From contig NZ_JAAXPG010000002.1 of NCBI RefSeq assembly GCF_012396365.1, forward strand, positions 62,001 through 126,000: a stretch of 64,000 bases of DNA, given 5' to 3'. The position numbers and the translations under genes were made by a program. Under the pieces are notes generated by a model. It searched no databases. It was not told the DNA's origin and saw only the letters and a list, made by a program, of their open reading frames with translations. Source of the stretch: Nocardiopsis alborubida. GTDB lineage: Bacteria; Actinomycetota; Actinomycetes; Streptosporangiales; Streptosporangiaceae. This document shows positions 6,534 through 48,206 of the stretch, piece by piece; positions within the stretch are counted from its first letter, which is position 1; each line of letters starts with the position of its first letter.

Positions 6534-7637
6534 CTAGAAGTCGATGGAGGGCTTCGGTGGCCGCCGGAGCAGCACCGCCGCGCCCGCGAGGTCGGACCCC
6601 TTGCGGTCCTCACCGGCCTCAGCGCGCTCCTGGTCGGTGCGCGTGTCGATGAGTTCGAAGGCACCGGCGGGCAGTACGTAGCCGTCCGGGGTGGGAAGGG
6701 CGTTGCGCATCCGCAGGCGCAGCTCGAGGTCCAAGCGCCAGCACTGGATCGACTGCAGCGCGTCGGAGTCGAAGAGGTCGAGCTCGCCCTCGATCTCATC
6801 GGTGTCGCCGTCGGGCCAGGAGATGACCGCGTGGACGGGATCGCGGCCGCGAAGGCTGGTGCGCTTGATGTTGAGGTCGCCGATGATCGCGGCGAAGTCC
6901 TCTCCCAGTCTCAGCTCGAAGGCGATGGCGCGCAGGTGGTCGAAGTTGAGATCGATCTTGCGCGAGAACTCGACGACCGCGGAGACCGCCTCCTCGGCGA
7001 TCCCGGGCACCTGGTCGCGCAGGTACTCGGCGACGGTCTCGGGCTCCGGGTAGGCGAAGCGCATGTGGTAGTGGAATCGGCCCGGCCGGTTGAGCATGTA
7101 GTCGCTCGTGCGATGGAGCGAGTTGACCGAGAGCACGTAGAGACGCTTCGTCGTTGAGAGGCCGTCGAAGAGCGAGAGGAACTGGTCCTGCGGGGCCTCG
7201 TCATCATCGACCGGCGCGAAGACCTTCTCGAACTCATCGAAGACCACGAGGCATTCGCCGAGCTCATCGAGGAAGGAGGCAAGGCCGGGTGTCGAATGCT
7301 GGACGAGGACTGTCGGCAGCTCGTACTCCTCGCGCATCTTCTCGGCGAGCATACGGATCATCAGCGACTTGCCCATGCCCTTGTCGCCGGAGAGAATGAC
7401 GCCGAGCGAGCGGCCCATCGCGGCGTAACCGGTGGCGATCCGGCCCACGCGCGCGGCGTGGTCGCCGTAGATGGCCTCGTCGCCCGGGGACAGGGGCTCG
7501 GTCTCGTGGAGGCTGTAGCCGAGCATCGTCGAGAACTGGATCGTGTACGTCGCGACGGGGAGCCGGTCAAAGGTCTGGACCGAGTCGTCGTACAGGCGCA
7601 GAGCGCCGCCGGAGGAAACGATCGTGGTGGCGGGCAT
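6534..7637 (-). CDS. AAA-type ATPase, single domain
   Basis: 367 residues. ATG 7637 is chosen because the upstream extension lacks coding bias; the only possible ribosome site is GAAAGCGAG. A Walker A GDKGMGKS lies at residues 84-91, Walker B LVVFDEFEK near 125, a sensor-like VLSVNSL near 165 and an arginine-finger candidate NRPGRFHYH. This layout matches AAA ATPases of phages and plasmids that remodel DNA or protein. The last 90 residues are a private beta-rich tail. It is the downstream end of the helicase/MoxR block, so a partner role there is my inference. Confidence 0.8.
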   Translation of the reverse strand: MPATTIVSSGGALRLYDDSVQTFDRLPVATYTIQFSTMLGYSLHETEPLSPGDEAIYGDHAARVGRIATGYAAMGRSLGVILSGDKGMGKSLMIRMLAEKMREEYELPTVLVQHSTPGLASFLDELGECLVVFDEFEKVFAPVDDDEAPQDQFLSLFDGLSTTKRLYVLSVNSLHRTSDYMLNRPGRFHYHMRFAYPEPETVAEYLRDQVPGIAEEAVSAVVEFSRKIDLNFDHLRAIAFELRLGEDFAAIIGDLNIKRTSLRGRDPVHAVISWPDGDTDEIEGELDLFDSDALQSIQCWRLDLELRLRMRNALPTPDGYVLPAGAFELIDTRTDQERAEAGEDRKGSDLAGAAVLLRRPPKPSIDF

Positions 7638-7639
7638 GC

Positions 7640-7951
7640 ATACTCGCTTTCGTAGGAGGATGTGGGTGGTTGGAGGGCGTACGTCCAGCACACCGGCATG
7701 AGGTGGCCAGTCGGCGGGTAGGCGCCGCCGGGCTCGTCGAGGACGATGGCTGGGACGTCGCCCGAGGAGCCGAAGAATTGCTTGGCGCGCTCGACGAGGG
7801 GCTACTGGCGGTCCGCCGGGGACGGGAAGTGCTCAACGACGTGGCCGTCGCCTTAATCGGCGATGACCGAGTGCGCGCTGGCCGGGTGCCCGGTGCGTAC
7901 CGGATGGCGCGCGGTGGACATGTAGATGCTGGTGGTGAGCCTGACGGTCAT
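7640..7951 (-). pseudogene. Gene interrupted by TAA and TAG
   Basis: ATG 7951 opens MTVRLTTSIYMSTARHPV. The frame stops at TAA 7853-7855, resumes with strong coding bias (GDGHVVEHFPSPADRQ), stops at TAG 7802-7804 and resumes again (ERAKQFFGSSGDVPAIV). All three pieces share one frame and high GC at third positions, as expected for one gene carrying two nonsense changes. The 32-residue first piece could also be a short gene on its own. Function unknown. Confidence 0.45.
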
Positions 7952-7982
7952 CACCGCGGCGACGCTCCGCACACCCAAGCAG

Positions 7983-8075
7983 TTACAGGGCCTCAGTGGC
8001 GTACCATCCGGCGACCTGCCAGGCGGTCGCGGTTTTGTGGTCGGAACTGGGGTGCAGGGCGGCGAAACCGGTCAT
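7983..8075 (-). CDS. Micro-ORF, 30 residues, coupled by TGATG
   Basis: Found by hand. The ATG at 8075 overlaps the TGA of the upstream reading frame and ends at TAA 7983. The peptide begins MTGFAALHPSSDHKTATAW. Good codon bias and coupling support it; there is no family. Confidence 0.45.
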   Translation of the reverse strand: MTGFAALHPSSDHKTATAWQVAGWYATEAL

Positions 8076-8311
8076 CAGGGCTTTTTCTTGGTGCACTTCT
8101 TGCAGGCGTTGGTGGCGTCACGGGCGGGCAGGTACAGGTCGACAATGGCTCCGCAACGGGTGCCGAGCCCGACGGCGCCGTCGAGGATGTGCGGGGTTGT
8201 TCCAGGTCGGAGGATCCCGTACCTGGTGGTGGCCCCGTCCTCCTGGTCTTTTCTGAGAGCGTCGAGTTCGGAGGCTTCGCGGGGGGTGACGTCGTAGGTG
8301 ATGCTCCTCAG
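8075..8311 (-). CDS. Small zinc-knuckle protein, start codon unclear
   Basis: A clear coding frame reads SITYDVTPREASELDAL, later GTRCGAIVDLYLPARD, and ends ACKKCTKKKP with TGA at 8075. There is a good AGGAG, but the codon at the expected distance is ATC (8302), and CTG (8309-8311) is the only other near-start codon. Either a rare start is used or the ATG has been lost. C-x-x-C plus one more Cys suggests metal binding. Confidence 0.5.
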   Translation of the reverse strand: MRSITYDVTPREASELDALRKDQEDGATTRYGILRPGTTPHILDGAVGLGTRCGAIVDLYLPARDATNACKKCTKKKP

Positions 8312-8351
8312 CTCCTGCGGTGGTGTGTCAGGCTGGTGGTGCGGGACGCCC

Positions 8352-8444
8352 TCAATCGATCTGAGGGCGTCCCTTCGCGTTGGGCCAGTCGCCTTCGGTG
8401 ACGGCCTGTCGTGTGAGGGCGATCAGCTCGTCGGCCGCGGATCA
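8352..8444 (-). pseudogene. Startless coding fragment behind the helicase gene
   Basis: Immediately after the TAG of the SF1 helicase the same frame reads Ser-Val, TGA, and then a high-bias stretch (AADELIALTRQAVTEGDW) to TGA at 8352. No ATG, GTG or TTG lies between the TGA and this stretch. It may be a detached C-terminal tail of the helicase or a remnant of another small gene. Confidence 0.35.
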
Positions 8445-8450
8445 CACCGA

Positions 8451-11204
8451 CTACAGCACGGGCACGCCCGCGCTCTCCTCGTCGTCGACGAGGTTTGGGT
8501 CGATACCCAGCGCCAGCGCGCGAGCGTGCTTGTGGCGCTCGGCGGTCTCGACCTCCCTCTTCTCGAGCAGGTTGCCGATCGCCTCGTGAGTAGACACGAT
8601 CACGGGCTTGTCCGTGGTGCCGTAGGACAGGACGTACTCGGTCTTCCTCGCGCGGGTGAACGCTACGTAGTAGAGCCGGCGCACGTCCTGAGCCATCGCC
8701 TTGTCGTCCTTGTGCAGGATCACGGCGTTGTCGAACTCGAGGCCCTTGACGCCGTGGATCGTGGAGACGACCAAGTCGGCCTTCTCATCGAGGTTCTTCT
8801 CCTTGCGCGCCCGGTTACGGGCCTCCGTCAGCGACTTCTTGACCGCGTTCTGGGCGATCTCGAACTGCAGGAGGTTGTCGCGCAGGCGGGTGAAGAACTC
8901 GGCGGACGGCATGGAGCCCTGGTGGACCAGGGTGACCCAGGCGTTAGTGGTGGCTCCGTTCTCCAGCCACCATTTGGAGACGAGCTCGAGCACGGCGCGC
9001 TCAACCTTCGGGTTGTCGACGTTCTTCGTCAGCTTCTCCAAGTTGTCCCGGATGCCCTGGGTGACGACGAACGCCGCGTTGTTGGGCGGTACCTGGCGGA
9101 CGTCGTTCCAGAAGAACTTGATGTACTTGGAGAAGATGTCGGTGGCGAAGACGCGCTCGGACACCAGTGAGGCGACGTGCCTGCCCGGGTACTTGGACTC
9201 GAGCACCCTCTGCATGAGCGCGACCTCCCGCCGGGAGAACGCCAGAAAGACGACCTGCTCACCGCGGGCCAGGCAGGGGTCGACGTACTGCGGCAGCACC
9301 CGGTTGGCCAAGAGCGGGCTGAGCTCGTTGGAGAGAAACCCGCGCATCTGGGGCAGGTGCTCGTAGTCGAGCCTGACCTTCTCCTCGAACGAGGCTTTGG
9401 TCGGCTCCTCCAGCGAGTTCGCCCGCAACTGGATCTGTGCGAGTTGGTTGGTCTCCAGCTCGCCGAGGACGACGTTGGCAAAGTCCAGGATCTCCTGGTT
9501 GCTCCGGTAGTTCGTCGTCAGTTCGTAGGTGGCGAACACGCCCGAGCCTTCGAGCGTGTTCAGCGCCCGGGGGTTGGCTGAGCGGAACTCGAACAGGGTC
9601 TGGCTCGCATCGCCGACGATGTACAGCGACTGGTGGTGCTTGGCCACGTACTTGAGCACGTAGATGAACTCGAAGACCGAGTTGTCCTGGACCTCGTCGA
9701 TGATGAGGTGGCGGCAGGCCACGTTGGCGGGCTCGGCCATCTCGTCGATGCGCTGGTAGCAGATGATGATCTCCAGCTCCAGCGAGGTCTGCCCGATGGC
9801 GTCGAGCATGGCCATGACCCGGTCGTAGTGGCGCTCGACGAAGGTGTTGAGCGACGTCGCCGCCCCGATCTTGTTCCTGTCCACGTCGAGCAGACGCGCG
9901 CGGAAGTCTGCGGCGACCTGATCGGTGGGGAAGAAGATCTCGAGCGAGTTGATGATGGTGTCGATGCTTGAGATGTCGTGGCCGGAGTGGTTGAGCTGGT
10001 AGATGTCGTTGATCATCGAGGCGATGGTCATCGACCCCACGTCGGGGTTGCGTTCCTTGATGTTGTCCGCGGCGGCGTTGGTGAACGACAGGACCGTGAT
10101 GTCGGCAGGGTCCACCCCGCAGGCCACGAGGTGGGCGATGCGCTCGATGATCGTCGAGGACTTGCCTGTGCCCGCACCGGCGCGCACCATCGCCAGCGGT
10201 TCGGTGGTCGAGACGCAGGCGACCTGTTGCGGCGACAAGTACTCCGGCAGGGGCGGAGGTGGGTCGGGCGGGACCAGGCGCGCCAGCTGCGGCTTGATCG
10301 CGTCGAGGTCGGCCAGGGTGTGGTTCATCAGCAGGTTGAGGTTCTGCTTGGCCAGGACCTGGGCGACCTCGGAGTCGAAGGCCGCGGTCAACGCCCGGTG
10401 AATACGGCCGTAGGCCTCCAGCGGCACGCTGTAGTTCTCGAGGTAGCGCAGCTGGATGGCCAGCGTGTTGAGCACGTCCCTGTCGAAGGAGGCGACGTCG
10501 GCGATGTAGGCGTCGACTTCGGCGGCGATGGCCCCCGAGGACCAGGTCTCGGCCAGGCGTACGATCCGGTCGTGGATGGAGTAGTCGTTCATCCACGTGT
10601 CGAGGGAGTCGAGGTTCGTCGCGGCGATGCCCAGGCGGCCCAGCGCAAGGGAGATCGTGTCGGTGGCCGTCTCCATCGGGCTGGTGTCCCAGTCGAGGAG
10701 CACCACAGCGTCGGTGGCGGCGAGGTTGGTGCCCTCGGTTAGGCGCACGACGCGCTCGGGCTCGACCATGCCGGCACGCATGAGCACGAGCTCGGTGCGG
10801 TACTGGATGGCCAGCTCGTGCCTGATCGGCTTGGAGGACTTGTCCTCGCGCAACACCAGTGCCTGGGGGGTCATGTCGAAGACGGCCTCCCAGTCGTCGG
10901 AGTCGGTCTCAACGACGAAGCGCTCGGCCACGTCAGGCGTCGGCAGCGTCGCGGTGGGCAGGGTTTCGAGCGCGCGGCGGGTGATGCCGGCCAGCGGCAC
11001 GGTCACGACAGTGATGTCGTGCTGGGTGGTCGTGGTCTTGAGCTCAATCCGGTCCGGGGTCTCGATGCTGGTCGCGTCGAGGGGGCGCAGCCCCTGGTGG
11101 AGGCGGCCGGTCTTGTTGCCCGAGCCGTTGAGCTTGGAGCTGAAGAACTTCGCGTCGACCTTCTTGGCCTTCGTCGGGTCGAGGTCGTCAAGCAGCAGAG
11201 GCAT
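8451..11204 (-). CDS. SF1 (UvrD/Rep-like) DNA helicase with long unique N-terminus
   Basis: 917 residues from ATG 11204 with AAGGACG upstream. SF1A motifs are all visible: motif I AGAGTGKSS (342-350), Ia LSFTNAAADN, II IIDEVQD, III IVGDASQTLFEF, IV TNYRSNQE, V TIHGVKGLEFD and VI YYVAFTRARK. These predict an ATP-dependent 3'-5' DNA translocase. The first 320 residues match nothing I recognise and may bind a partner. A typical UvrD is about 700 residues without such an extension. It lies downstream of the ClpA-like and MoxR/VWA genes in the same direction, after a hairpin and its own AT-rich promoter-like region. Confidence 0.9.
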   Translation of the reverse strand: MPLLLDDLDPTKAKKVDAKFFSSKLNGSGNKTGRLHQGLRPLDATSIETPDRIELKTTTTQHDITVVTVPLAGITRRALETLPTATLPTPDVAERFVVETDSDDWEAVFDMTPQALVLREDKSSKPIRHELAIQYRTELVLMRAGMVEPERVVRLTEGTNLAATDAVVLLDWDTSPMETATDTISLALGRLGIAATNLDSLDTWMNDYSIHDRIVRLAETWSSGAIAAEVDAYIADVASFDRDVLNTLAIQLRYLENYSVPLEAYGRIHRALTAAFDSEVAQVLAKQNLNLLMNHTLADLDAIKPQLARLVPPDPPPPLPEYLSPQQVACVSTTEPLAMVRAGAGTGKSSTIIERIAHLVACGVDPADITVLSFTNAAADNIKERNPDVGSMTIASMINDIYQLNHSGHDISSIDTIINSLEIFFPTDQVAADFRARLLDVDRNKIGAATSLNTFVERHYDRVMAMLDAIGQTSLELEIIICYQRIDEMAEPANVACRHLIIDEVQDNSVFEFIYVLKYVAKHHQSLYIVGDASQTLFEFRSANPRALNTLEGSGVFATYELTTNYRSNQEILDFANVVLGELETNQLAQIQLRANSLEEPTKASFEEKVRLDYEHLPQMRGFLSNELSPLLANRVLPQYVDPCLARGEQVVFLAFSRREVALMQRVLESKYPGRHVASLVSERVFATDIFSKYIKFFWNDVRQVPPNNAAFVVTQGIRDNLEKLTKNVDNPKVERAVLELVSKWWLENGATTNAWVTLVHQGSMPSAEFFTRLRDNLLQFEIAQNAVKKSLTEARNRARKEKNLDEKADLVVSTIHGVKGLEFDNAVILHKDDKAMAQDVRRLYYVAFTRARKTEYVLSYGTTDKPVIVSTHEAIGNLLEKREVETAERHKHARALALGIDPNLVDDEESAGVPVL

Positions 11205-11263
11205 GGGTGTCGTCCTTAGGTGTACGCGGCGGGCGAGTCGGCGAGGGTTGCTCAAAGGAAAGG

Positions 11264-11306
11264 ATCATTCGACTCACCCTTTGAATGATGCCATCAATGA
11301 TCCAAG
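11264..11306 (-). promoter_or_regulatory. AT-rich promoter-like region upstream of helicase
   Basis: An AT-rich pocket in GC-rich DNA holds ATCATTC (11264-11270) inverted as GAATGAT (11283-11289), then ATCAATGATCC. Similar ATCATTCAATG-type words occur upstream of other leftward operons here (19241, 33571). It probably contains the helicase promoter and possibly a regulator or Lsr2 site. Confidence 0.4.
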
Positions 11307-11361
11307 AAAGGCATTCGATGGACCATCGGAGAAGGGTGAGCGGGAAGAAGGCGCGCCAGAG

Positions 11362-11396
11362 GCAGAGCCCAGGCCGCTAGGCAGCCTGGGCTCTGC
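11362..11396. terminator. Hairpin between ClpA-like and helicase operons
   Basis: GCAGAGCCCAGG (11362-11373) pairs perfectly with CCTGGGCTCTGC (11385-11396) across 11 bases. It sits downstream of the small gene at 11508 and upstream of the helicase promoter region, so it probably ends the MoxR-VWA-ClpA transcript. Confidence 0.65.
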
Positions 11397-11507
11397 TCCT
11401 CTCACCCCACCCGCAGGGGCCGTCAGGCCCCTGTCCGGTCCGTGCACACCCGAGGGCACGGAGATCATGCGTACCCGCCTTACCCTCCGGAGGGAGGATC
11501 GGCGATG

Positions 11508-11711
11508 TCAGCCGCGGTGGTCGACGAGGTCGAACTCCTCGGGGATCGCCTCGGCAATGCGGCCCGAGGCGTTGGTGCGCAGTAGGCCGAGCATGTGGCC
11601 CAACTCGTGGCAGTCGTCGTCGTGGGCGCTGGCGTGTACGCTCCGGCGCCCGGCGTCGGCGGCCTGCTCGGTCCTGTCCTCGGACTTGACGGTGGCGATG
11701 GTCATGATCAC
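11508..11711 (-). CDS. Small acidic protein coupled to ClpA-like gene
   Basis: 67 residues starting at GTG 11711, which overlaps the stop of the ClpA-like gene as GTGA (an ATG two codons on is also possible). It begins MIMTIATVKSEDRTEQAADAG and contains DDDCHELGHMLGLL, a HELGH sequence that resembles a zinc-peptidase motif but is probably chance in so short a protein. The coupling suggests that it works with the ClpA-like ATPase. Confidence 0.55.
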   Translation of the reverse strand: MIMTIATVKSEDRTEQAADAGRRSVHASAHDDDCHELGHMLGLLRTNASGRIAEAIPEEFDLVDHRG

Positions 11712-13633
11712 TCGCGTTGGTCGATCGTGCGAGCGATCGCCGCGCTGGTCTGGGTCTTCGCAGCCTGGGCTGCCATGATCCGGTCCTCGATCCAGGACCG
11801 GACCGCCTTGTAGGCGGGCCGGGCTCCCTGGGAATCGACGTAGGCGGTCTTTGCCAGCGTCCGCAGTTCATCGTCGGGCATAGCAGCAGGCAGGGCCTGA
11901 GCGAGCCTTGGCTTGGCGTCGATGATCCGCGCTACTTGGCTCTCGTAGTTGGCAGCCATGATCTGCCGGAACACGACCTCGTCGATTTGGTTGAAGCCCA
12001 CGATCAGTGAGAACCGACCCAACAGTTCGGGCTCGAAGTGCTGGGCGAGCTCTGTGTTGAGGCTCTGCTGCGAAACGACCCTCGGGCCTGAGATGAAGCC
12101 GATCGAGCTGCCGCTGAGAGCTTCGCGGGCCGCATTGGTCGTGACGATGACGACGGCCTTGGAGAAATCGAGCAGCTTCCCGTGCGCATTGCGGATGTAC
12201 CCCTCGTCGAACGCCGAGAGGAACAGTCGCTGCACAGCCATGTCGGCCTTCTCGAACTCGTCGAGCAGGACGACACGGTGCGGGTTGGACTCGAGCGTGT
12301 CGAAGGGCAGCTCCTGGTTGGAGTCGGATCCGACGTAACCCGGAGGTGCTCCGATGATCTTCGCGGTCGAGTACGGAGTGTGGTATTCCGTCATGTTGAG
12401 TACGATCGGCTCCTGGCCGGTCATTTGCTCGGCGAGGATCTTCGCGGTCTCGCTCTTGCCCGAGCCCGACGTTCCGGCGAACAGGCATGTGAGCGGGGTC
12501 TTCGTCGGGAACAGTCCGAGCTCCTCGCGCGCAATGCGGTCGGCGACCCTCTCCAGGACCTCGTCCTGGCCCTGGAGTCGATTGAGCAGCGTCGTACGCA
12601 GCGTCGCGGCGTCGAAGTCCGGGCGTTGGGCGTTGCCTGTCATCAGTGACTTGGCCACGTCGAGGACGCGCGTGGCCGTCAGCGGCACCTGGGAGATCGA
12701 CCGCAGGGTCGCCGCCAAGGCGCGGTCGCCGGCGGCCTCAGCCTGGGCGATGAGCTTCTTCTGCTCCAACACGCGGTCGGCCATCGAGCGGTCGAGCAGC
12801 GTGATGGCGTTGTCGGGCCGGTGGGCACTGGCCTTCGAGGTCGCCTCGGCGATCTTGACCGTCTCGGCCAGCACGTCGTCGGAGACTCCGATCTGGTGGC
12901 GGTAGTGCGCCATCAGGCCGGGTCGAACGGTGCTGAGGACCGCGAGCGTCTGCTCGACGGTCAACTCGTCGACGATGAGCTGGGTGAAGCGGCGGGCGAA
13001 GGCCGGGTCCTCGTCGAAGGCGCGCGACTCGTTCGAGGTGGTCGCGCCGATGACGCTCATCTGCCCGCGGGCCAGCGCCGGCTTGAGGATCTGGCTGATC
13101 TTGCGGTTGGTCGGATCGCTGTGCGAGCTCGATCCTCCGGTGATCTGGTGAATCTCGTCGATGAACAGGAGGGCCCTGTTCTTCGGACTCGAGGCGAAGT
13201 CGACGACGGCCTGGACCTTCTCCTCCAGCTGGCCGACTATGCCGGAGCCAGCGACGAGGTTGGTCACCGGCAGTTCGTAGATGGTGTAGTCCTTGAGCAG
13301 GTCCGGGATAAGTGAGTCGCCGAGAGCGATGCGGCGGGCGATATCCTCGACGATCTTGGTCTTGCCGACGCCGGCTGAGCCCTTGAGCAGGACGTTGGGC
13401 TTGTTCTTGCTGATGAGGGTGGCCAACGTCTGCTCGATGAGCGTGTCGCGGAAGAGCGTCGGCTCGGCGTTCTTGAACTTTTCGTTGTAATCGACGAGCA
13501 GCCCCTTGACGGCGTCGTCACTCTGGCCGCCCGGGGAAAAAGGGCTGCCCATGCCAACGCCGATGCCGCCGGTCGGTGGACCGCTATTGTTCGCGTCATC
13601 ATCGTTGTCCTGGGTGAAGTGGGACAGTCCCAT
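11708..13633 (-). CDS. ClpA/ClpB-like protein with two AAA+ domains
   Basis: 641 residues from ATG 13633 with GGAGGTCTCACC upstream. The first AAA+ domain has Walker A GSAGVGKT (85-92) and Walker B LLFIDEIH (near 157). The second has GTSGSGKS (near 391), APPGYVGSD, VVLLDEFEKAD and sensor-1-like VIVTTNA. This is the Clp/Hsp100 plan: an ATP-driven hexamer that pulls substrates through a central pore. It lacks a canonical ClpA N-domain; the first 60 residues are Gly/Asp-rich. Inference: as the MoxR, VWA and ClpA-like genes are adjacent, this may be the remodelling motor of that cassette. It is shorter than typical ClpB (about 860). Confidence 0.85.
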   Translation of the reverse strand: MGLSHFTQDNDDDANNSGPPTGGIGVGMGSPFSPGGQSDDAVKGLLVDYNEKFKNAEPTLFRDTLIEQTLATLISKNKPNVLLKGSAGVGKTKIVEDIARRIALGDSLIPDLLKDYTIYELPVTNLVAGSGIVGQLEEKVQAVVDFASSPKNRALLFIDEIHQITGGSSSHSDPTNRKISQILKPALARGQMSVIGATTSNESRAFDEDPAFARRFTQLIVDELTVEQTLAVLSTVRPGLMAHYRHQIGVSDDVLAETVKIAEATSKASAHRPDNAITLLDRSMADRVLEQKKLIAQAEAAGDRALAATLRSISQVPLTATRVLDVAKSLMTGNAQRPDFDAATLRTTLLNRLQGQDEVLERVADRIAREELGLFPTKTPLTCLFAGTSGSGKSETAKILAEQMTGQEPIVLNMTEYHTPYSTAKIIGAPPGYVGSDSNQELPFDTLESNPHRVVLLDEFEKADMAVQRLFLSAFDEGYIRNAHGKLLDFSKAVVIVTTNAAREALSGSSIGFISGPRVVSQQSLNTELAQHFEPELLGRFSLIVGFNQIDEVVFRQIMAANYESQVARIIDAKPRLAQALPAAMPDDELRTLAKTAYVDSQGARPAYKAVRSWIEDRIMAAQAAKTQTSAAIARTIDQRE

Positions 13634-13789
13634 GGTGAGACCTCCTTCGGTGGGTGCTGGGTCGAGGCGGCGCCGGTGAGCGCGAGCGATCCGGGTGGGG
13701 GTGCGGACAGCTGAGATGAGGCGGCCGATCCCGCAGCGCCGCCTGTCGGATCAGGTTGCGCTGCGGGCCGCAGCCGTGCGCTCGGCCGG

Positions 13790-15466
13790 TCAGACCACCA
13801 TGCCCAGCAGCTTCTGGCGGATCGACGGGTCGATGTGGTGCATGCCGTTGGCGAAGTCCGTGGCGGACTGGACCGTGAGGGCCCAGTCCGTGGCCGAGCA
13901 CGGCGCGTAGTACAGGTTCGCCGGGTGGTCGACGCGGGCCGATGGAGGTGGCCACTCGAAGTCGGTGATCACCAGGCTCAGCTGTCGCTTGCGCTTATTC
14001 GACGCGTTGATGTAGTCCCAGACCTGCTTGAACTCGGTGCCGCCGGTGACCTTGGGCACCTGGCGGAACTCCTCCCAGATCCGGCGCAGCGACTTGTTCT
14101 CCACCTTGAGCAGCGCCTCCTGCGAGAGGATGTGGCTGAACGAGTTGAAGTAGATGTTGACGCCCAACTTCTTGGCGATGCGGATGAGCATCATCACCGC
14201 CTCCTGGTAGTTCTCCTCGGAGATCGACCCGGAGGTGTCGATGTAGACGTGTAGATCGGGCATGTACTGCACCGAGCTGATCCGGCCGGGTTTGTTGAAG
14301 TCGTCCGGGTTGCGCCTGTTCGCCTTGAGGAACGTCGTCTTCATAGTGCGGTAGACGTTCTGCGACTTGTTGACCTTGCCCATGCGGCGCAGCACGCGGG
14401 TAATGTCCTTGAACAGGTCCAGCCTCGTGGGCGGGGCCTTGCGGAACTTCACCTGCGCGGAGCGCGAACCAGGCAGGCCCGGCTGCTGGTTCGCGCCCAT
14501 GGCGGCCGCCTTGGCGACGGCCCGCGGCAGCGAGGTCAGCTTGGACAGCGCGGAGTTCGAGACGACCCTCACCGGCGAGGCCAGCGACTGGTTGATGAGG
14601 TTCCACTCTCCCGTGATCTGGGACGCGGAGGCACGGGCGTGCGCCTCGACGTTGACCAGGACCACGGACTTCGGGCAGAACAGCTCGCCGACCGTGAACG
14701 GCAGGACTCCGACGTCGGAGGTCTGGCCGCGCTGCTGGCCGACGTAGGTCATCAGCATGTGCATCAGCAAGCGCGGGAAGGACAGCTCGTCGTTGCCGTC
14801 AGAGTCGTCCTTGCGTAGCAGTAGGGACTCGGTGAGCCCTTTGAGTGAGAGCTTGGCGAAGTCGCCGACCAGCTTCAGGGTTCTCGCCGGCACCGGCGAA
14901 CTCGCGCTGCCCAGAGCTTGGGCCTGAGCGGACAGCCAGACCTGGAAGCCGTCGAAGGCAGCGTCGGACTGGAACCAGAAGCCGAGCGTGCCCGGGTGGA
15001 AGGCGTATGCCAGCGAGGCGAAGAACTCGCTCTCGTCGGCCGAGCCGGCGAGTAGTCCCTTGGCCGCAGGGATCACGTCGGACTGGGCGGTGTAGATGAC
15101 ACGGGGCCCGGGTGCGGGCATCTTGTTCCGCTGCCCCGCCTGGGCGGCGAAGAGCTCACCGACGGGCAGGGGCGTGGTCTGGTCGTAGTTGACCATCGTC
15201 TGGCCCAGCAGCTCCTTGGCGACCTTCTCGGCACTGGTGTTGACGCTGTCGCCGAAGCAGGACACGAGAATGTCCAGGACGTCGTTGGTCAGGTCCTTTC
15301 CGGATCCGTCGACGATCGAGGCGGGCGCGTGCGGGCTTAGTGGCTCGAGCAGCGGGTCCACCAGTACTTCTTGGAGGGCGGGCATCGGGTCGTAGTCGCC
15401 GATGCACGTGATCGTGTGGACCGCGTCGAGCACGGCCGGCTTCTGGTTGGTGACGGTAATCGTCAT
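13790..15466 (-). CDS. VWA-domain (MIDAS) protein, MoxR partner
   Basis: 558 residues from ATG 15466 with AGAAGGAG upstream. The C-terminal part (about 405-550) is a von Willebrand A domain: HVYIDTSGSISEE gives the D-x-S-x-S metal site, followed by GGTEFKQVWDYI and LVITDFEWPP. The N-terminal 400 residues are unassigned. Cytoplasmic VWA proteins beside MoxR AAA+ ATPases form chaperone-like complexes that insert metals or mature targets. Here the MoxR gene is directly upstream and a ClpA-like gene directly downstream, an arrangement I have not seen named. Confidence 0.85.
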   Translation of the reverse strand: MTITVTNQKPAVLDAVHTITCIGDYDPMPALQEVLVDPLLEPLSPHAPASIVDGSGKDLTNDVLDILVSCFGDSVNTSAEKVAKELLGQTMVNYDQTTPLPVGELFAAQAGQRNKMPAPGPRVIYTAQSDVIPAAKGLLAGSADESEFFASLAYAFHPGTLGFWFQSDAAFDGFQVWLSAQAQALGSASSPVPARTLKLVGDFAKLSLKGLTESLLLRKDDSDGNDELSFPRLLMHMLMTYVGQQRGQTSDVGVLPFTVGELFCPKSVVLVNVEAHARASASQITGEWNLINQSLASPVRVVSNSALSKLTSLPRAVAKAAAMGANQQPGLPGSRSAQVKFRKAPPTRLDLFKDITRVLRRMGKVNKSQNVYRTMKTTFLKANRRNPDDFNKPGRISSVQYMPDLHVYIDTSGSISEENYQEAVMMLIRIAKKLGVNIYFNSFSHILSQEALLKVENKSLRRIWEEFRQVPKVTGGTEFKQVWDYINASNKRKRQLSLVITDFEWPPPSARVDHPANLYYAPCSATDWALTVQSATDFANGMHHIDPSIRQKLLGMVV

Positions 15467-15581
15467 CGCGGTGGTCTCCTTCTGAGGGCAGGGGCTGCGG
15501 CGATGCGCGGATGCTTCTGCGGGCCGCCAGCGGGAGCGGGGAGCGGCTTCAGCCGCTCCCCGCTCCTCGGTGCAGCCTCGA

Positions 15582-16820
15582 TCAGAGGAATGCCGACAGG
15601 ACGGGCTTGGCCGCGTTGGCGACCGGCGCGTCGATGTCCAGGAAGGCTTCCAAGTTCTGGCGGTCGACCTGCTGGCTGGTCACCATCTCGATGAGGGTGC
15701 GGGTGTGCTCCGGCTCGATCCGGGTGGCGGTCTGCGCCAGCTGCTCGATCAGGCGGGCGTTGTCCGAGTTCTCCTTGAGGGCGTACAGCAACGCGCCAGA
15801 GATCTCTTTCTCGGTGAGCTCTTGGATCTTCTTGGCCAGATCCGTGACCGTGCCCGCGGCCTTGAGCTCGGCGTAGCAGTTCGGCTTCGGGACGTTGACC
15901 CGGTTGACGGCGGTCGGCCCCGAGTTCGAGGCGAGGTCCTCGGCGATGGTGGCCACCACCTGGGTGGTGAACATGGTGTCGCCGGTGTAGGCCTCGATGA
16001 TCTCGTTGAGCTCGGAGGTCTCGCGCCCGCCGATCTGGACCGGGGTCGCCAGATGGCTGGCCAGGTCCTGGCGGTCGGCTGCGTTCAACCACCTCGACAG
16101 GTAGTCGATCGTGCGCGGCGTGGTGAGCTGGTTCATCTCCTCGCCACCATCGAACAGCTCGGCCATGGTGACGTTGCCGTCGTCGTCTTCGTCCTGGCCA
16201 TCGGCAACGATCGCGTTCGGCGTGGACTTCTGGAGAATCAGCGCCGGGTACTGCGTGAGCACCTTCTTCACCCACGGGTTCAGGTTCGGGATGACAGACA
16301 TCAGGGTCGAGGCGTCGGGCTCCACGTGGAAGATGGCGAATCGGGACAGGCTCGCCTCGTCCAATGTGGTGACGTTGCCCTTGTCGTTGCCAGCGACGAC
16401 GATGCGCACGTTCTTCGGGAGTTCGACATGGCCCATGCGACGCAAAGTCACCAGGGTGAGCGCGCCGGAAGTCACATCCGAGGTCGTACGGTTGATCTCG
16501 TCGAGGAAGAGGATCGGCCATTCGCGAGGGTTGGCCTCGGCGTAGTCGATCACGTCCTGGATGACCTGGTGGGGGTAGAAGACCTGCTTGTAGCTGTCGG
16601 TGCCGTCGGCCTTGACATAGGGCACGAGACGCGCGCCGGTGAGGTCGGCCTTGTCAGCGAGCTGGTTGCAGGGCAGGACGAAGGCTTTGGTGTCCATGCT
16701 GTAGGCGAGGTCCTCGACGAAGGAGCTCTTGCCGATGCCGGGCTCACCCATGAGCGCAGGTGTCGCGCCGACTTCGAGAGATTGCCGGACGAGCTTGGCC
16801 AGGGTGTCGTTGAACTTCAC
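15582..16820 (-). CDS. MoxR-type AAA+ ATPase
   Basis: 412 residues from GTG 16820 (AAAGGAATTCACT upstream). Walker A GEPGIGKSS (25-33), Walker B ILFLDEINRT (near 102), sensor-1-like VVAGND and arginine-finger-like SLSRFAIFHV match the MoxR/AAA_5 family. These ATPases act with VWA proteins, as the next gene suggests. The C-terminal 150 residues are family-variable. First large gene of the MoxR-VWA-ClpA block. Confidence 0.85.
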   Translation of the reverse strand: MKFNDTLAKLVRQSLEVGATPALMGEPGIGKSSFVEDLAYSMDTKAFVLPCNQLADKADLTGARLVPYVKADGTDSYKQVFYPHQVIQDVIDYAEANPREWPILFLDEINRTTSDVTSGALTLVTLRRMGHVELPKNVRIVVAGNDKGNVTTLDEASLSRFAIFHVEPDASTLMSVIPNLNPWVKKVLTQYPALILQKSTPNAIVADGQDEDDDGNVTMAELFDGGEEMNQLTTPRTIDYLSRWLNAADRQDLASHLATPVQIGGRETSELNEIIEAYTGDTMFTTQVVATIAEDLASNSGPTAVNRVNVPKPNCYAELKAAGTVTDLAKKIQELTEKEISGALLYALKENSDNARLIEQLAQTATRIEPEHTRTLIEMVTSQQVDRQNLEAFLDIDAPVANAAKPVLSAFL

Positions 16821-16936
16821 AGTGAATTCCTTTGATCATGGGTGAAAGGGGCTTCTTGGGCCCTCGGGACGGGCGTCGCGAGCAGAGGACCGGAGGCAGA
16901 GCACGGGCGTTCTCGGATCACCCTGCGCAAATCACG

Positions 16937-17046
16937 TCAGCGGCTGGCGGGGGCCATCGAGCCGCTCATGACGGGTTCGTCTCTGTGATCGAGAACGAAG
17001 ACCTTTGCCGTGAGGCGGTGCGGTCCTGCCCCAGCACCGCCTCCAT
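16937..17046 (-). pseudogene. Frameshifted short gene
   Basis: ATG 17046 opens MEAVLGQDRTAS with good bias. A second frame then takes over (KVFVLDHRDEPVMSGSM) and ends TGA at 16937 without a start of its own. One base change near 17010 would join them into a peptide of roughly 36 residues. The surrounding 16821-17104 holds no other gene; a small hairpin GGATCGCG/CGCGATCC lies at 17052-17070. Confidence 0.35.
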
Positions 17047-17104
17047 CCCCGGATCGCGTTTCGCGATCCAACCCCCGCCTCGGGCAAAGCCGGGCCAGCA
17101 GCGT

Positions 17105-18133
17105 TCAGGCAGTACCGATGGGGCGCTCCTGCGCCCGTGCCAGTCGATCGGCGACCAGTGAGGCCGCACGATCGAGCAGATAGGGCCGCCCGTTACGCGT
17201 CTCCGTGTGCTTCGCCCGCTTGGGCAGCACCTCGATGGCGGCGGCGTAGAGGAGCCAGGCCTGGTCACTGGCCGAGTAGCTCGTCTGCCTCATCCCGGCA
17301 TGGAGGTTCATCGCCTGGACCTGTTCGGCGTAGAGCGTGCCGAGGACGGAGAACTCCCAGCGGGAGCGGTCGTGGTCGAAGTCGGACAGATCCTTGCGCC
17401 GGTCCTTGGAGCCGACGACCGCCGCGGCGACGATGTCGTGCGCACCGGGGATGTCGGGCATGTCCTCATCGGTAACGATCTCACCGGCGGACCCGGCGGC
17501 GCCGGCGCGGGCGTTCTCGGCCAGGTCGGCGTAGAGGTCCTCAAGCGAGGCGAAGCGGGTCGGCGGCCGGTCATCCTCGAGCCCTGCGGCCACGGATCTG
17601 CGGGTGAAGGTGATCCAGTGGTCGAGCAGGATCTCGAACCATCCGTTCCTCTGGCGTAGGACGCGCTTGTGGGCGGCGTGCGGGAAGTCGTGGAGGTTCT
17701 TCGGCCGCGGCATGACTAAGTGGTATCCGCGCCCCGACATCGAGGTCTCCGCCCAGAGGACGCCGGGTAGGCGCAGTAGGTCGGCCGCGAGGTCGGGCGG
17801 GCAGTCGGGCTCGACATCGACGACGACGACTCCGTCGCTGTGCGACTGCAGGTAGTAGGCGTGGTTGGCCGCGTTGGGCAGGGCGGCGACGAGCTCGCCA
17901 AGGCTCATCAGGCAGGTCGAGTCGAGGGCGAAGGCCCCGCGCAGAGGGCCGTCGTGCTGGCACCCGGGACGACAGCCCTCGAGGAAATGGCGGACGTCGA
18001 TCGGTGCCTTGTGCCCGGAGTCGGGGTCGTCGCCGAGCCGTCCGGACACCGTCCAGCGCCGAACGGGGGCCAATGTCTGGATGGTCAAGTTGGTGTAGAA
18101 CTCCGGGAAGAGCGTGAGCGGATCGACGGTCAC
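17105..18133 (-). CDS. Prim-Pol-like (archaeo-eukaryotic primase superfamily) protein
   Basis: 342 residues from GTG 18133, chosen over upstream codons because GAAGG lies eight bases before it. Three motifs fit a Prim-Pol catalytic core: VVVVDVEPD (Asp/Glu pair, 106-108), SGRGYHLVMP (133-142) and the segment ending ILLDHWITFTRR (about 168-179). Such proteins make primers or copy DNA on mobile elements. The last 150 residues are helical and unassigned. No helicase domain is fused; the separate helicases nearby could serve it. A second, D5-type primase-helicase is at 37012. Confidence 0.7.
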   Translation of the reverse strand: MTVDPLTLFPEFYTNLTIQTLAPVRRWTVSGRLGDDPDSGHKAPIDVRHFLEGCRPGCQHDGPLRGAFALDSTCLMSLGELVAALPNAANHAYYLQSHSDGVVVVDVEPDCPPDLAADLLRLPGVLWAETSMSGRGYHLVMPRPKNLHDFPHAAHKRVLRQRNGWFEILLDHWITFTRRSVAAGLEDDRPPTRFASLEDLYADLAENARAGAAGSAGEIVTDEDMPDIPGAHDIVAAAVVGSKDRRKDLSDFDHDRSRWEFSVLGTLYAEQVQAMNLHAGMRQTSYSASDQAWLLYAAAIEVLPKRAKHTETRNGRPYLLDRAASLVADRLARAQERPIGTA

Positions 18134-18232
18134 ATCAACGCCTTCGTGTGTTGGTGGGTCAGAGGGAAGAAAGACGAGACCCCGCGCTGGTGCGCAGAGC
18201 GGGGCCTCGTCGATCGGCCATGGCACGTCCGC

Positions 18233-19183
18233 TCAGCCGTTGTAGGCGATCCCGGCCTGGGGCTGGGACTGCTGCGGGGCCCAGGGGCTGCTCGGGTCCG
18301 GAGTCCCGATGGCCGAGGCGACGTCCTTGGCCGCCTGGTTCTCGGCGCGCAGCCTGGCGTTCTCGGCCTCGATGCGGGCGAGCTTCTGCTCGGCGGTCTC
18401 CTCGGCCTGGACCGAGGAGGGCTGCGCCTGCTGGACGGCCTGTGGCTGGGCGACGGGGGCCGGAACGACCTGCTGCGCGGACGGAGCCGGCTGGGTCGGG
18501 GCCTGCTGTACCTGACCGGCCGGCTGAGGAGCCGGGAAGGACAGGCCGGAGGTCTTGTCGACCTCGGTGCCCACGGGCTCGGCCCCACCGACAGGGGTGG
18601 CTTCGTTGGACGGCACGGCCTGCATCGGCTGAGCCAAGGTGATGCCGCGGGCCTTCAGCTGGGACTCGTCGACGCTGCCGGGGGTGTAGTAGCGAGGGGC
18701 CTCGTTGACGAGCACGTGAGTCAGTCCCAGACCGCGGTTCTCCTGGTCCCTGGCCTTGTACACCTCGAGGACGAGGGTGACGTCGAGCCCGCGGGCGAGC
18801 TCCTGGCCGCTGAGGTCCTGGACGAAGCCACCCTCACCGGGGATCCCGATGCTGGGCAGGTTGTTGCCCTTGGAATCGATCGAGTAGCTGAGGCCGTCCT
18901 CGGGCTTCTTCTTCGAGGTGTAGCAGCGCTCGGCGACGTACTGCTCCTCGAGAGTCGGGTTGTCGGGGTCGGCATAGATGACCTGGGCACCGCCGCTGAT
19001 GGTGGCGGTGGTGTACGGGCTGGTGATGTCGTACTTCATTCCGGCCTGGCGGCGGCGGACGTTGGCCTGCGCGAGTTCTTTACCCTCGATGCGGCGGGTG
19101 AGCCGGGCGAAGGCGAGCTTGCCCCGGATGGTGACGACGGAGCCCTCGGTGAGCTGGTCGGCGCGGACGGTGTTGTTAGCCAT
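18233..19183 (-). CDS. Beta-rich protein with Q/P-rich tail, possibly ssDNA-binding
   Basis: 316 residues. The first about 170 (MANNTVRADQLTEGSVVTIR, then KLAFARLTRR) are beta-rich with charged strands, like an OB-type fold. Residues about 205-260 are Q/P/A-rich low complexity (QPAGQVQQAPTQPAP), and a short coiled coil AEQKLARIEAENARLRAEN follows. Bacterial SSBs have an OB domain plus a Q/P/G linker, and a related tail occurs in the SSB-like gene at 54289. The DNA-binding role is inference. Promoter region at 19228-19265. Confidence 0.6.
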   Translation of the reverse strand: MANNTVRADQLTEGSVVTIRGKLAFARLTRRIEGKELAQANVRRRQAGMKYDITSPYTTATISGGAQVIYADPDNPTLEEQYVAERCYTSKKKPEDGLSYSIDSKGNNLPSIGIPGEGGFVQDLSGQELARGLDVTLVLEVYKARDQENRGLGLTHVLVNEAPRYYTPGSVDESQLKARGITLAQPMQAVPSNEATPVGGAEPVGTEVDKTSGLSFPAPQPAGQVQQAPTQPAPSAQQVVPAPVAQPQAVQQAQPSSVQAEETAEQKLARIEAENARLRAENQAAKDVASAIGTPDPSSPWAPQQSQPQAGIAYNG

Positions 19184-19620: not shown

Positions 19621-19624
19621 CTGG

Positions 19625-29737: not shown

Positions 29738-31678
29738 TCACGCAGGGGCGAGGGCTCGGATGTCGTCAGCGAGCTCATCGCTGAGAGCGGCAAGCTTCAG
29801 ATCGTCGCGGCGCTGCATCGACACCGCGTCGAGCAAGGTGTCCTGGGTGTTCTTCTTCTCCCGCAGGACACCGGGCATCCGGTCGTCATGAGTGCCCTTG
29901 GTCAGCAGCCGGTAGATGGTCACCGGCCGCGTCTGTCCGGGGCGGTCGAGGCGTTTGTTCGTCTGCAGGTAGTGCTCGAGGCTGAACGGGAGGGTGTACC
30001 AGATGAGGGTGTGGCCGCCGCCCTGCAGGTTGAGCCCGTGGCCGGCCGAGGCCGGGTGGACGAGCATCACCTCGACCTGACCGGCGTTCCACCGGCGGAC
30101 CATCCTCCGTGAGCCGTCGAACTCCTCGGCCCTGATCCCGGCTCCCTTCAGCCTGGTCAGCAGCTGTTCCTTGTCGGAGCGGAAGTGGTAGGCCAACAGC
30201 ACCGGAGAGCCGCCGTTGTTGCGGATGAGGTACTCGGCCATCTCGGCCTTGGCGGTGTGGACGACCTCGTAGCGGCCCTTGGTCGACGGATCGTCCGGGT
30301 CGGAGGTGTAGAGCGTGCCGCTCGCGTACTGCAGCAGCTTCGAGGTCAGCACGGCCTCGTTCTGTGCCACGACCGTGGTCACCAGGGACATGCGGTTGGC
30401 GTCGAGGAAGCGCTGCAGGTGGCCCTGATACACGTCCTCGTGGTCGTCGCCCGTCAGCCCCGACAGCTCGGCTCGGATCACCTGGGCCTCAGGGGCGGAC
30501 ATGGCCAGCCACTGGTCGAATGCCTCGCGGGCGGCCTGCAGCAGGTTGTCGTCGACGATGTCGAGGACGAGCTCCCGCTTGAAGGACTTGTAGTCTTCCA
30601 TCAGATCCGGCGCGAGCCTGACCGTCACGTCCTCGACCGTGCGGCCGGGCAGGTTGAGTTCGGTGTTCTCCGCGCTCATCACCAGGTGCCCGATGGCCCG
30701 GTGGATCTCGGACTCGGCATCCGGGTTGGGCATCCACTTGGCCGGGGTGTTGGTGCCGGGGACCATCTTCGGGGTGAACCACCGGCCGCGGAAGGCGGTG
30801 ATGTTGTGCCCGAGAGCTTCGCCACCGTCGAGAAGATACATCTGCGACCACAGGCCTTCGAGCCCGTTGGCCGCGGGCGTGCCTGTGAGCTCAATGAAGC
30901 GGTCGACGGTGGGACGGATGGCCTTGAGCGCCTGGAACCGACTTGAGGAGTGGGACTTGAACCCTTGCGACTCGTCGATGATCACGGTGCGGAACGGCCA
31001 GGTGGGCTCGGTCTCGTCGAACAGCATCTGATCGACGAGACCGAAGCGGCACTGCCGACAGCCCTCGCTCGAGCAGGAGCGACACTTGACGGTCTCTCGC
31101 ACCAGGCGTGAGGCCTTGAGCAGCTCCTTGATCCAGGCGGCGACACGGGCCTTGGCCGCCGGTTTCTCGCCACGATCGACGGCCGCGGCGATCACAGCCG
31201 AGACGAGTTCATCCTGCTTCAGCGGTCCCAGCGCCCGGCCCAGGTCGAGCACGGCCTGCGCCTCGGACGAGACCGGCACGGATCCGGCTGCGTCGGGGGC
31301 GGCGACGAGCACCCGGGTCGACTGGGACGACTGGGTGAGCATCTCCTGGTTGATGAAGTACATCGACGGGGGATCGGTGGCGATCTCGGCGAAGCGGGCG
31401 AGCCGCTCGTCCTTGCTCAGCTGCCGATCGTTGTCGTCAACGATGAGCGAACGGGTGCGGATAGGCATCTGCCACTTCTCGATCTCTTCGATCCAGGTCG
31501 ACCGAGCGATCGCCACGGGAGCGACGACGAGGATGTGGCCGACAGGCCGAAGCTGCATGAGCGCGGCAAGGGTCGATAGCGTCTTACCCCCACCCATGTC
31601 CAGCCAGATACCGCAGTGCGGGCGGCTGGTGATGAAGTCAACCGTTTGCTGCTGGTGCGGTTTGAGCGCGATGGCCAT
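29738..31678 (-). CDS. SNF2-like SF2 helicase/translocase
   Basis: 646 residues from ATG 31678 (AAGGGGGGCG upstream). N-lobe: HQQQTVDFITSRPHCG, Walker A DMGGGKT (27-33), DESQ box in VIIDESQGFKSHSS (near 237), ELTGTPAANG. C-lobe: LLAYHFRSDKEQL, HPASAGHGLNLQGG and NKRLDRPGQTRPVTIYRL. This is the phage/plasmid SNF2 layout of DNA translocases. An inserted four-Cys zinc knuckle (CRSCSSEGCRQC, near 200) sits between motifs I and II. The position between a methylase-like gene and the polymerase block suggests a role in replication or repair. Confidence 0.9.
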   Translation of the reverse strand: MAIALKPHQQQTVDFITSRPHCGIWLDMGGGKTLSTLAALMQLRPVGHILVVAPVAIARSTWIEEIEKWQMPIRTRSLIVDDNDRQLSKDERLARFAEIATDPPSMYFINQEMLTQSSQSTRVLVAAPDAAGSVPVSSEAQAVLDLGRALGPLKQDELVSAVIAAAVDRGEKPAAKARVAAWIKELLKASRLVRETVKCRSCSSEGCRQCRFGLVDQMLFDETEPTWPFRTVIIDESQGFKSHSSSRFQALKAIRPTVDRFIELTGTPAANGLEGLWSQMYLLDGGEALGHNITAFRGRWFTPKMVPGTNTPAKWMPNPDAESEIHRAIGHLVMSAENTELNLPGRTVEDVTVRLAPDLMEDYKSFKRELVLDIVDDNLLQAAREAFDQWLAMSAPEAQVIRAELSGLTGDDHEDVYQGHLQRFLDANRMSLVTTVVAQNEAVLTSKLLQYASGTLYTSDPDDPSTKGRYEVVHTAKAEMAEYLIRNNGGSPVLLAYHFRSDKEQLLTRLKGAGIRAEEFDGSRRMVRRWNAGQVEVMLVHPASAGHGLNLQGGGHTLIWYTLPFSLEHYLQTNKRLDRPGQTRPVTIYRLLTKGTHDDRMPGVLREKKNTQDTLLDAVSMQRRDDLKLAALSDELADDIRALAPA

Positions 31679-36700: not shown

Positions 36701-36976
36701 GTTCCGTAGGTCGAAGAAGGTCACCGCGGTGGCGGGGAATGCCGGTAGTCCCGGGTTGGCTGCGAAGAGCCGGCGGCCGAGGGCCTGGTGGTCGATGGCG
36801 TCAGCGAGGTTGGTGCCCTCACCCGCGTCGTCGACGAGGTAGAAGACCTCGACAGTGCCCGCGCCATCGGAAAACGGCGTGTAGGCGACGAGGCTGAAGA
36901 CATTGGCCAGCGACTCGATGTCGTAGAAGGTGAACAGTGACTGCTCAGCAGTGATGGGTGTCCTCTCGGTGCTCAT
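33725..36976 (-). CDS. Family B DNA polymerase with 3'-5' exonuclease
   Basis: 1083 residues. The open frame starts 264 bases earlier, but ATG 36976 has AGGAGAAAGG upstream and the extension is low-complexity Arg/Pro. Exonuclease motifs: I TFYDIESLAN (17-26), II AGYNSTNYDTTM and III AYNVSDCLGL. Polymerase motifs: A DFSSYYPNLL (near 638), B KLILNSASGAGDTTFG (near 702) and C ISTNTDGLYSV (near 750). A C-terminal about 300-residue region is less conserved. Thirty-five bases follow the primase-helicase gene, so the two form one replication operon. Size and motif spelling match plasmid/phage polymerases rather than bacterial Pol II. Confidence 0.9.
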   Translation of the reverse strand: MSTERTPITAEQSLFTFYDIESLANVFSLVAYTPFSDGAGTVEVFYLVDDAGEGTNLADAIDHQALGRRLFAANPGLPAFPATAVTFFDLRNEASNVRLAEIVGLSDADRVNDPAESSSYPAGLRPVCDTDAGYDPAAHPFLAGYNSTNYDTTMLALYLNEVFQATEGDVFRPTTAAEMRTHNDRLFSADNIEYMPRYLGWDSTAASIRQAMLHSGRHIDIARLNELQWKVPLKGLLGLLGRQIKESDRLSHDTTLTELDDLYELLAYNVSDCLGLAQLFEEPTYSSAFDLKAGLLAEYPETVYEKDYRTGKPAIDPSRVRRNRLTIDSTSAKFVGLILSPYGKLEDIPTVSFKYPATSVAEEQGIEQVNVLDQCQCFFEDEVVPDRATNPDQAEAHRQFMDVVAYYRSIEGENFNDSDEYRRVHGDREAKVLKELPRLPNNLPYFDAAGRPTSCFATFSTGGIHGAEADMKAYAADQLAYAEAENMLLRAQSAFPDPLDFRAAAKRQHELLTLPDGSQVTKSLVISGKKWRKPKKGDDVQNEQLALAQEQVTDPEELLATQRPKAEELNVVLPTGEALLGKAVLAKHTISGATYRQVPAARQPELFVENKKKPGDRSTRLDAKYARTSAGHVIHEDFSSYYPNLLRNMRAFWNPDLGEDRYAKIFFDKERYGKQMKVPGIAPEEKARLHTLRNGTKLILNSASGAGDTTFGNSPIRMNNTIISMRIIGQLFSWRIGQAQTLAGARIISTNTDGLYSVVDTPGAPGAFSAETNNRVLAEQQAAIGIEIEPEPMFLISKDSNNRLELVPPEEDKAADDHVDHAPVNPVADWEIDAAGGGTLACHAGPTPAKKLAHPAVTDFALARYLQTVAARGEWALSEPFDPELGRTILQAAIDPDDPVKTLMLFQNIITASRGSITYPFAVDPLGRDDEEALDENLVLANPQALQTVNRVFVVEHGTPGAKSLLSARARVVNADSKERRRELGEAPVRREKEALAILRAHGWAGDRLELGSADGLTFIPEDRDVVAQRISGINPSWSMVVRNDDLHALDAQVLDDLIASLDLEVYLGMLDATFSRNWKNSA

Positions 36977-37011
36977 GAGGGGTGTGCCTTTCTCCTGGAG
37001 GGGGTTTCGGC

Positions 37012-48151: not shown

Positions 48152-48206
48152 GGGCCGACCGCGACGAACGCGCATTCCACGACAACTACTGAGAGGTTCC
48201 CCCAGC

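Follow-up and report, generated by a model that had tools for sequence, protein, structure and literature searches.

A conserved gene cassette for a putative primase-polymerase and AAA+ proteins in a mobile element of Nocardiopsis alborubida: a candidate part of an element-encoded replication apparatus

What brings a MoxR-type ATPase and a VWA protein together with a Clp-like unfoldase, a superfamily 1 (SF1) helicase and a primase-polymerase (PrimPol) on one strand of an actinobacterial genome? The question is raised by positions 6534-19183 of a 64,000-nucleotide stretch of Nocardiopsis alborubida DNA (C12:62001-126000 of the 7.16-Mb genome), referred to here as the window. An earlier note on this sequence described six leftward genes and saw in them a possible stand-alone machine for DNA repair, replication restart or defence. 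The open reading frames (ORFs) had been placed correctly and all lie on the minus strand, but they number seven. The module is real and conserved, in a new setting: it is one block of an integrated or plasmid-borne element of ~90-100 kb, out of which the earlier note had cut it. The best explanation, to which we give a rough probability of 0.55, is that the cassette supplies the priming and AAA+ functions of a replication apparatus encoded by rare actinobacterial integrative and conjugative elements (ICEs) and large plasmids.

Relatives of the cassette were located through the VWA protein in PLSDB plasmids, in a scan of species genomes and in IMG/VR. By tblastn, three PLSDB plasmids carry it, those of Streptomyces sp. 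NBC_01454, Gordonia sp. KTR9 (pGKT2) and Rhodococcus fascians (pGS01); these are also the three records, among ten plasmid records with a MoxR match, in which the match covers at least 80%. The genome scan yields 18 loci, from Nocardiopsis (2), Arthrobacter/Pseudarthrobacter (6), Streptomyces (9) and Brevibacterium (1), a lower bound because two peptide patterns were used, and IMG/VR adds one metagenome contig. At all 22 loci PrimPol, MoxR, VWA, ClpA-like and SF1 follow one another in this order on one strand, which is far beyond chance; genes standing apart without order, the outcome that had been named as speaking against a set, were not seen. The OB-like gene heads the order, found by tblastn at 21 of the 22 loci, with an ORF of similar size in its place in pGKT2 that aligns at 28-29%. 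The AAA gene at 6534-7691 had been counted as a fixed member, but is absent from 10 of the 22 records. The six other proteins of the window share 28-47% identity with their counterparts in pGKT2 or pGS01, the two most distant plasmids. This family is rare among actinobacteria: of the 396 Actinomycetota genomes sampled, VWA is present in one, the genome of the window. The earlier note had proposed looking for co-occurrence of the genes in other plasmids and phages; VWA has no tblastn match among 50,697 phage records. Seemingly broken genes in L007 and L020 (flagged stops) and in G014 (a TGA) were set aside, their positions fitting upstream of the likely true starts. Literature searches, which most subscription papers lay outside, returned nothing recognised as a cassette with this gene set.

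Comparison with the DNA of N. metallicus places the start of the element at ~C12:28835, 33 kb left of the window, and its end somewhere before a LexA-like gene at window position 59157. The GC content is 64-68% inside the element and 70-77% in the left flank, while no sharp edge shows in the right flank (62-72%). Left of the window are encoded a MobL relaxase (E 1.1e-90), a TraG/VirD4-type coupling protein (T4SS-DNA_transf, E 1.3e-20), a lysozyme/CHAP hydrolase, a second Clp protein and an RNA polymerase-like protein. Relatives sit within a 7.7-Mb contig and in a complete-chromosome record, and with a relaxase and a coupling protein inside a chromosomal element this is probably an ICE. Attachment-site repeats were sought: the ends of the window's element share chance 12-mers only, and those in N. 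metallicus none; no integrase was found among the element proteins scanned. Like the actinomycete ICEs (AICEs) and PAISt, the element is integrated, actinobacterial and equipped with transfer genes. Classical AICEs transfer double-stranded DNA by means of a TraB/FtsK protein, whereas this element has MobL, a VirD4-type protein, its own polymerase set and the RNA polymerase-like protein. A cassette relative is present in the genome of Streptomyces turgidiscabies Car8 (L016), the host of PAISt (PMC4057263).

The replication reading fits because the cassette travels with the element DNA polymerase (22/22), with the D5 helicase (21/22) and with a predicted origin (Table 1). This origin emerged from a comparison of shared intergenic words across five elements. 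The 8-mer TGTACCAC is enriched in all five, at 6-10 copies against 0.2-0.4 expected, and its copies, direct and inverted, are arrayed upstream of the D5 gene. Exact copies number 8 in the window against 0.53 expected, a count reached in 0 of 100 shuffles, and seven of these flank an AT-rich stretch. Twenty of the 23 records (the window's genome and the 22) contain the inverted pair TGTACCAC-N3-16-GTGGTACA, at 51 places altogether, every one of them ~0.4-1.0 kb upstream of a D5 match; a reversed control pattern occurs at 3 places only. Outside the D5 clusters, one copy falls in a window gene and two in G005 genes. The array looks like an iteron origin adjoining its replication gene. A role as promoter of the element RNA polymerase was considered and rejected, the word clustering at D5 and not being spread over genes.

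Table 1. Features of the cassette and of the element around it, in window coordinates.
Feature	Position	Strand	Evidence
OB-like protein encoded first in the cassette; may bind single strands	18233..19183	-	tblastn relatives in 21/22 loci, an ORF at the expected position in the remaining one; matches neither a family nor the PDB
Putative primase-polymerase (PrimPol), helical domain at the C-terminus	17105..18226	-	relatives in 22/22; motifs; best structural rows NrS-1 PrimPol, weak model
MoxR-type AAA+ ATPase	15582..16820	-	AAA_5 E 4e-11 (Pfam); phrog_1297; 22/22 loci
VWA protein with MIDAS motif, N-terminal ~400 residues without assignment	13790..15466	-	motifs; present at the 22 loci by construction
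ClpA-like unfoldase with two AAA+ rings, N-domain missing; has a pore loop and a loop of the ClpP-docking type	11708..13633	-	AAA_2 E 7.2e-33; best PDB profile ClpE; 22/22 loci
SF1 UvrD-type helicase, long N-terminus without assignment	8451..11255	-	UvrD-helicase E 1.6e-25; motifs 22/22; 22/22 loci
AAA ATPase (phrog_2376), optional neighbour	6534..7691	-	Pfam and PHROGs; 12/22 records
SNF2-type helicase	29738..31678	-	SNF2-rel_dom E 3.3e-13
Element DNA polymerase, start probably inside the ORF (ORF overlaps D5 gene)	33725..37240	-	phrog_1252 E 9e-24; no Pfam match; 22/22 records
D5/P4-type helicase	37012..38880	-	TIGR01613 above cut-off; 21/22 records (not pGS01)
Predicted origin of replication: iteron-like array with TGTACCAC seven times exactly, in both orientations	39279..39605	.	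word enrichment, counts, shuffles
RecJ-like DHH nuclease	42292..44250	-	DHH E 1.3e-13; phrog_2484
Actin-like partition protein	47871..49511	+	phrog_691 partition protein E 9.3e-14

Pfam and PHROGs confirm four of the families named in the earlier note. Pfam assigns AAA_5 to MoxR, AAA_2 and AAA (Clp type) to the ClpA-like protein (phrog_4871 in PHROGs), UvrD-helicase and UvrD_C to SF1, and AAA to the 6534-7691 gene. Neither Pfam nor PHROGs returns anything for PrimPol and the OB-like protein. In SF1 the N-terminal ~320-340 residues are without a family, as had been remarked, because the UvrD match starts only at residue 341; the gene itself probably begins near 11204, since relatives begin close to the ATG at residue 18. 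Exact-pattern checks on 22-23 sequences per protein find Walker A in 23/23 for MoxR and for both ClpA-like rings, and Walker B in 23/23 for MoxR and in 22/23 for each ClpA-like ring; a strict MoxR sensor-1 pattern is matched in 14/23 only. Six patterns from motifs I to VI of the SF1 helicase are all present in 22/22 sequences. The PrimPol carries motif I (DxE type) in 21/22 and motif II (SxH type) in 22/22. To judge from these motifs, the cassette genes look like genes of working enzymes.

The VWA protein has the DxSxS and TDFxW motifs in 23/23 sequences, the threonine position of the metal ion-dependent adhesion site (MIDAS) being N in pGKT2 and pGS01. Its fold is assigned provisionally, from these motifs and a Pfam match below cut-off (DUF2201, E 0.012), and its best PHROG carries the label HNH endonuclease. 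AlphaFold2 models have a mean predicted local distance difference test score (pLDDT) of 46 for VWA, too poor for assigning the N-terminus, and of 51 for PrimPol, with confidence at residues ~250-345 of the latter only. The six top structural rows of the PrimPol model are all NrS-1 PrimPol (Z 6.3-6.5), its catalytic part lying mostly below pLDDT 50; in the confident C-terminal domain, the 7rr3 row covers 83 residues at a root-mean-square deviation of 2.8. Sequence profiles of the PDB give chance-level matches only for PrimPol, the OB-like protein and VWA, and none for the element DNA polymerase. The protein at 17105-18226 is possibly a PrimPol, from its motifs and a weak structure model. With the NrS-1 phage PrimPol and the P4/D5-type plasmid primases it shares the PrimPol motifs and, in the weak model, a helix-bundle domain, and the element has a D5 helicase by TIGR01613; it differs from these systems in having separate genes for PrimPol and D5, with 15-41 kb between them as measured from VWA to D5, and a DNA polymerase that is separate as well.

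Against PDB profiles, the ClpA-like protein aligns with ClpE, ClpB, ClpC and ClpA chains (best match, ClpE 29hb), beginning past the N-domain. The 19 of 23 sequences that were aligned all have GY[VI]G in the pore loop and GF in the docking-type loop; the [ILV]GF form is found in 18/19, with AGF in L025. A loop of the [ILV]GF type marks the Hsp100 proteins that partner ClpP. The two AAA+ rings and both loops are those of ClpA, ClpC and ClpE, whereas the cassette protein has no N-domain and is encoded by the element. Among the matches listed it is 30-35% identical to phage Clp proteins, and it is 33-34% identical to plasmid proteins of the ClpL type. From its sequence features, it probably remodels or degrades replication proteins together with host ClpP. 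The second double AAA+ Clp-type protein of the element (P0010, L028:1908-3677, left of the window in the transfer block) shows by eye neither a GYVG pore loop nor a GF docking loop; the two Clp proteins therefore probably do different work.

Pairs of a MoxR AAA+ protein and a VWA protein act as chaperones, as in RavA-ViaA, CbbQ-CbbO and NorQ-NorD. The cassette pair appears to be of this kind: the genes are adjacent at 22/22 loci with intact Walker and DxSxS motifs, as in those pairs and in that of jumbo phages, and the VWA protein bears the predicted MIDAS. For group 2.2 jumbo phages, PMC7824862 describes a MoxR-vWA pair with a metallopeptidase and proposes a role in virion assembly. The cassette VWA differs from these proteins by its lack of a phage match, its ~400 N-terminal residues without assignment and its replication setting, and HExxH is present in 0/23 VWA proteins, unlike the metallopeptidase of the jumbo phages.

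These parts can be arranged in a working model. The D5 helicase would open the DNA at the array near 39.3-39.6 kb, PrimPol would prime and the OB-like protein would cover the single strands, the element polymerase would extend the primers, and the SF1 and SNF2 helicases would clear its path. The ClpA-like protein, devoid of the N-domain that takes adaptors, would unfold an element protein, most simply the iteron-bound initiator or a stalled replication complex, which host ClpP could then destroy. Initiator remodelling has precedents in other elements, where host ClpA activates RepA and ClpX activates MuA. MoxR and the MIDAS-bearing VWA protein would be a second chaperone, selecting or assembling a client complex. 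The association with replication is supported and that with defence is not; the function proposed here is guilt by association, and the mechanism is inferred.

Several observations weigh against this model. VWA is present at all loci by construction, since they were found through it, and the 22 loci are not independent, since many of those in Streptomyces are near-identical to one another, as are many of those in Arthrobacter. From VWA it is 15-41 kb to D5 (17 records), 10-37 kb to the polymerase and 21-57 kb to the RNA polymerase; these figures come from 18 records, leave out four and assume for draft genomes that VWA is on the contig listed for its partners. Gaps within the cassette range from 6 to ~760 bp and no single operon is visible. 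The exact inverted pair is missing from pGKT2, pGS01 and the 35-kb IMG/VR fragment, and pGS01 has no D5 match. The Z of 6.3-6.5 for the NrS-1 rows indicates, by the tool's own scale, possibly a common arrangement. Finally, MoxR-VWA pairs elsewhere serve other ends, among them conflict systems (PMC7159879) and, as has been proposed, virion assembly (PMC7824862).

Among the alternatives, a module for transfer or establishment is unlikely, if not by a wide measure. The AAA+ proteins, PrimPol and SF1 would then act after conjugation on the incoming single strand or the relaxase, making the DNA double-stranded and freeing it of transfer proteins. The element does have MobL and a VirD4-type coupling protein, and primases are known to move with conjugating DNA (PMC5512222). 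However, the cassette stands on the replication side, on the opposite strand and ~20-57 kb from the transfer/RNA polymerase block, and that block already has a Clp protein of its own.

The RNA polymerase of that block is an observation in its own right. P0008 (1861 residues; L028:10194-15779, window ~-9806 to -4221) is a single-chain beta-beta' RNA polymerase-like protein with an Rpb2_6 match, a weak Rpb1_2 match and weak matches to RNA polymerase subunits. It carries GDKLSDLHGNKG and DGDFDGD, which we take to be the beta and beta' signatures; both are kept in the sequences read from G001, G004, G005, NBC_01454 and pGKT2. A corresponding piece is found in 21/22 records (not in the 35-kb fragment), with open frames of ~1850-1980 codons, annotated as 'hypothetical protein' in all three plasmid records; in pGKT2 the coding sequence (L059:14361-19751) probably has a misplaced start, because an open, matching frame extends upstream of it. 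No match was found among the 50,697 phage records. Distant relatives are encoded on five Staphylococcus and five Lactococcus plasmids (24-28% identity over 31-44%); of two that were read, both have DFDGD and one has GDK..HGNKG. These signatures are also those of the two-barrel RNA polymerases of YonO, jumbo phages and killer plasmids, from which P0008 differs in belonging to a conjugative element and in having both parts in one chain.

It is improbable, more so than for transfer, that the cassette serves this enzyme, with MoxR-VWA and the ClpA-like protein assembling or recycling it and SF1 as a HelD/UvrD-type remodeller of the stalled polymerase. The near-constant presence of the RNA polymerase-like protein (21/22 records) would suit such a link, and SF1 has a weak HelD match (NF041464, E 5.2e-14) among many of UvrD type. 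Yet SF1 scores higher with Rep and PcrA than with HelD, the RNA polymerase gene adjoins the transfer genes and not the cassette, and no cassette gene is annotated in two ~18-kb stretches of the Staphylococcus/Lactococcus plasmids, of which parts only were read.

A defence or counter-defence cassette carried as cargo has little to recommend it. PADLOC matches SF1 with the GajB and DRT helicases; for the AAA domains of the ClpA-like protein its matches are PDC-M37B, DolB and TRIP13. MoxR-vWA proteins do occur in conflict systems (PMC7159879). These PADLOC matches are, however, generic to UvrD and AAA, and no known system is called on the seven proteins: GajA, which Gabija would need, is not among them, nor is, by Pfam and PADLOC, the VMAP or other third component or an effector of the MoxR-vWA ternary systems, the bpMoxR match (E 0.033) being below cut-off. 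None of the elements compared lacks the cassette, and identity to the most distant is 28-47%; this is the behaviour of a core and not of cargo. Least probable of all, and very much so, is that the element is phage-like and the proteins are chaperones of virion assembly. A MoxR-vWA pair is known from jumbo phages, some of which also carry a ClpA (PMC7824862), and one relative is classed as viral in IMG/VR, but VWA finds no phage record and lacks HExxH in 23/23 sequences, and PHROGs, which scanned 26 of ~87 called element proteins, give no capsid or portal among those 26. The tail-type PHROG matches come from a glycine-zipper protein and from the lysozyme/CHAP protein; the one weak terminase match is the ATPase motif of the second Clp protein.

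Within the cassette region, a sigma-70 scan of 6000-20000 gives 0 promoters against 0.7 expected, and terminator-like sites number 10 against 5.8 expected (standard deviation 2.7), hardly above chance. By eye, GC-rich long inverted repeats lie in the gaps before SF1 (11256-11507) and before VWA (15467-15581), and may separate transcription units. A tRNA-Ala at 11679-11756 (ARAGORN) is a chance call overlapping the ClpA-like gene and small ORFs. AT-rich intergenic stretches with ATGATCAT and CATTGAAT words precede several genes, such as those of the OB-like protein, the RNA polymerase and the second Clp protein, and might be operator sites for a regulator of the element. A protein with a VRR-NUC nuclease domain is encoded at 33028-33348, between the genes for SNF2 and the polymerase; one is also annotated in the NBC_01454 plasmid. 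Two segments have no counterpart in the N. metallicus element. One, ~0.86 kb adjoining the predicted origin (~39970-40830), looks like an insertion sequence transposase gene; the other is an island at 22052-24581 (GC ~61%) that encodes a helix-turn-helix protein, an M78 peptidase of the IrrE/ImmA type and a DUF6545 protein, and may be cargo with a regulatory or immunity role.

Mobile elements usually borrow the replication and Clp proteins of their host. Tentatively, the element described here would be a conjugative one near self-sufficient in DNA and RNA synthesis, possessing an origin, a helicase, a primase, a DNA polymerase and a single-chain RNA polymerase of its own, in which a dedicated remodelling module of two motors, the ClpA-like protein with host ClpP, and MoxR-VWA, might switch the replication or transcription complexes between the integrated, replicating and transferring states. 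With the single-chain protein, conjugative elements would join the known carriers of two-barrel RNA polymerases. Autonomous replication can readily be tested with the repeat array, and the module would let the role of replication-tied MoxR-VWA pairs be tested, offering a tractable case of protein remodelling at an origin.

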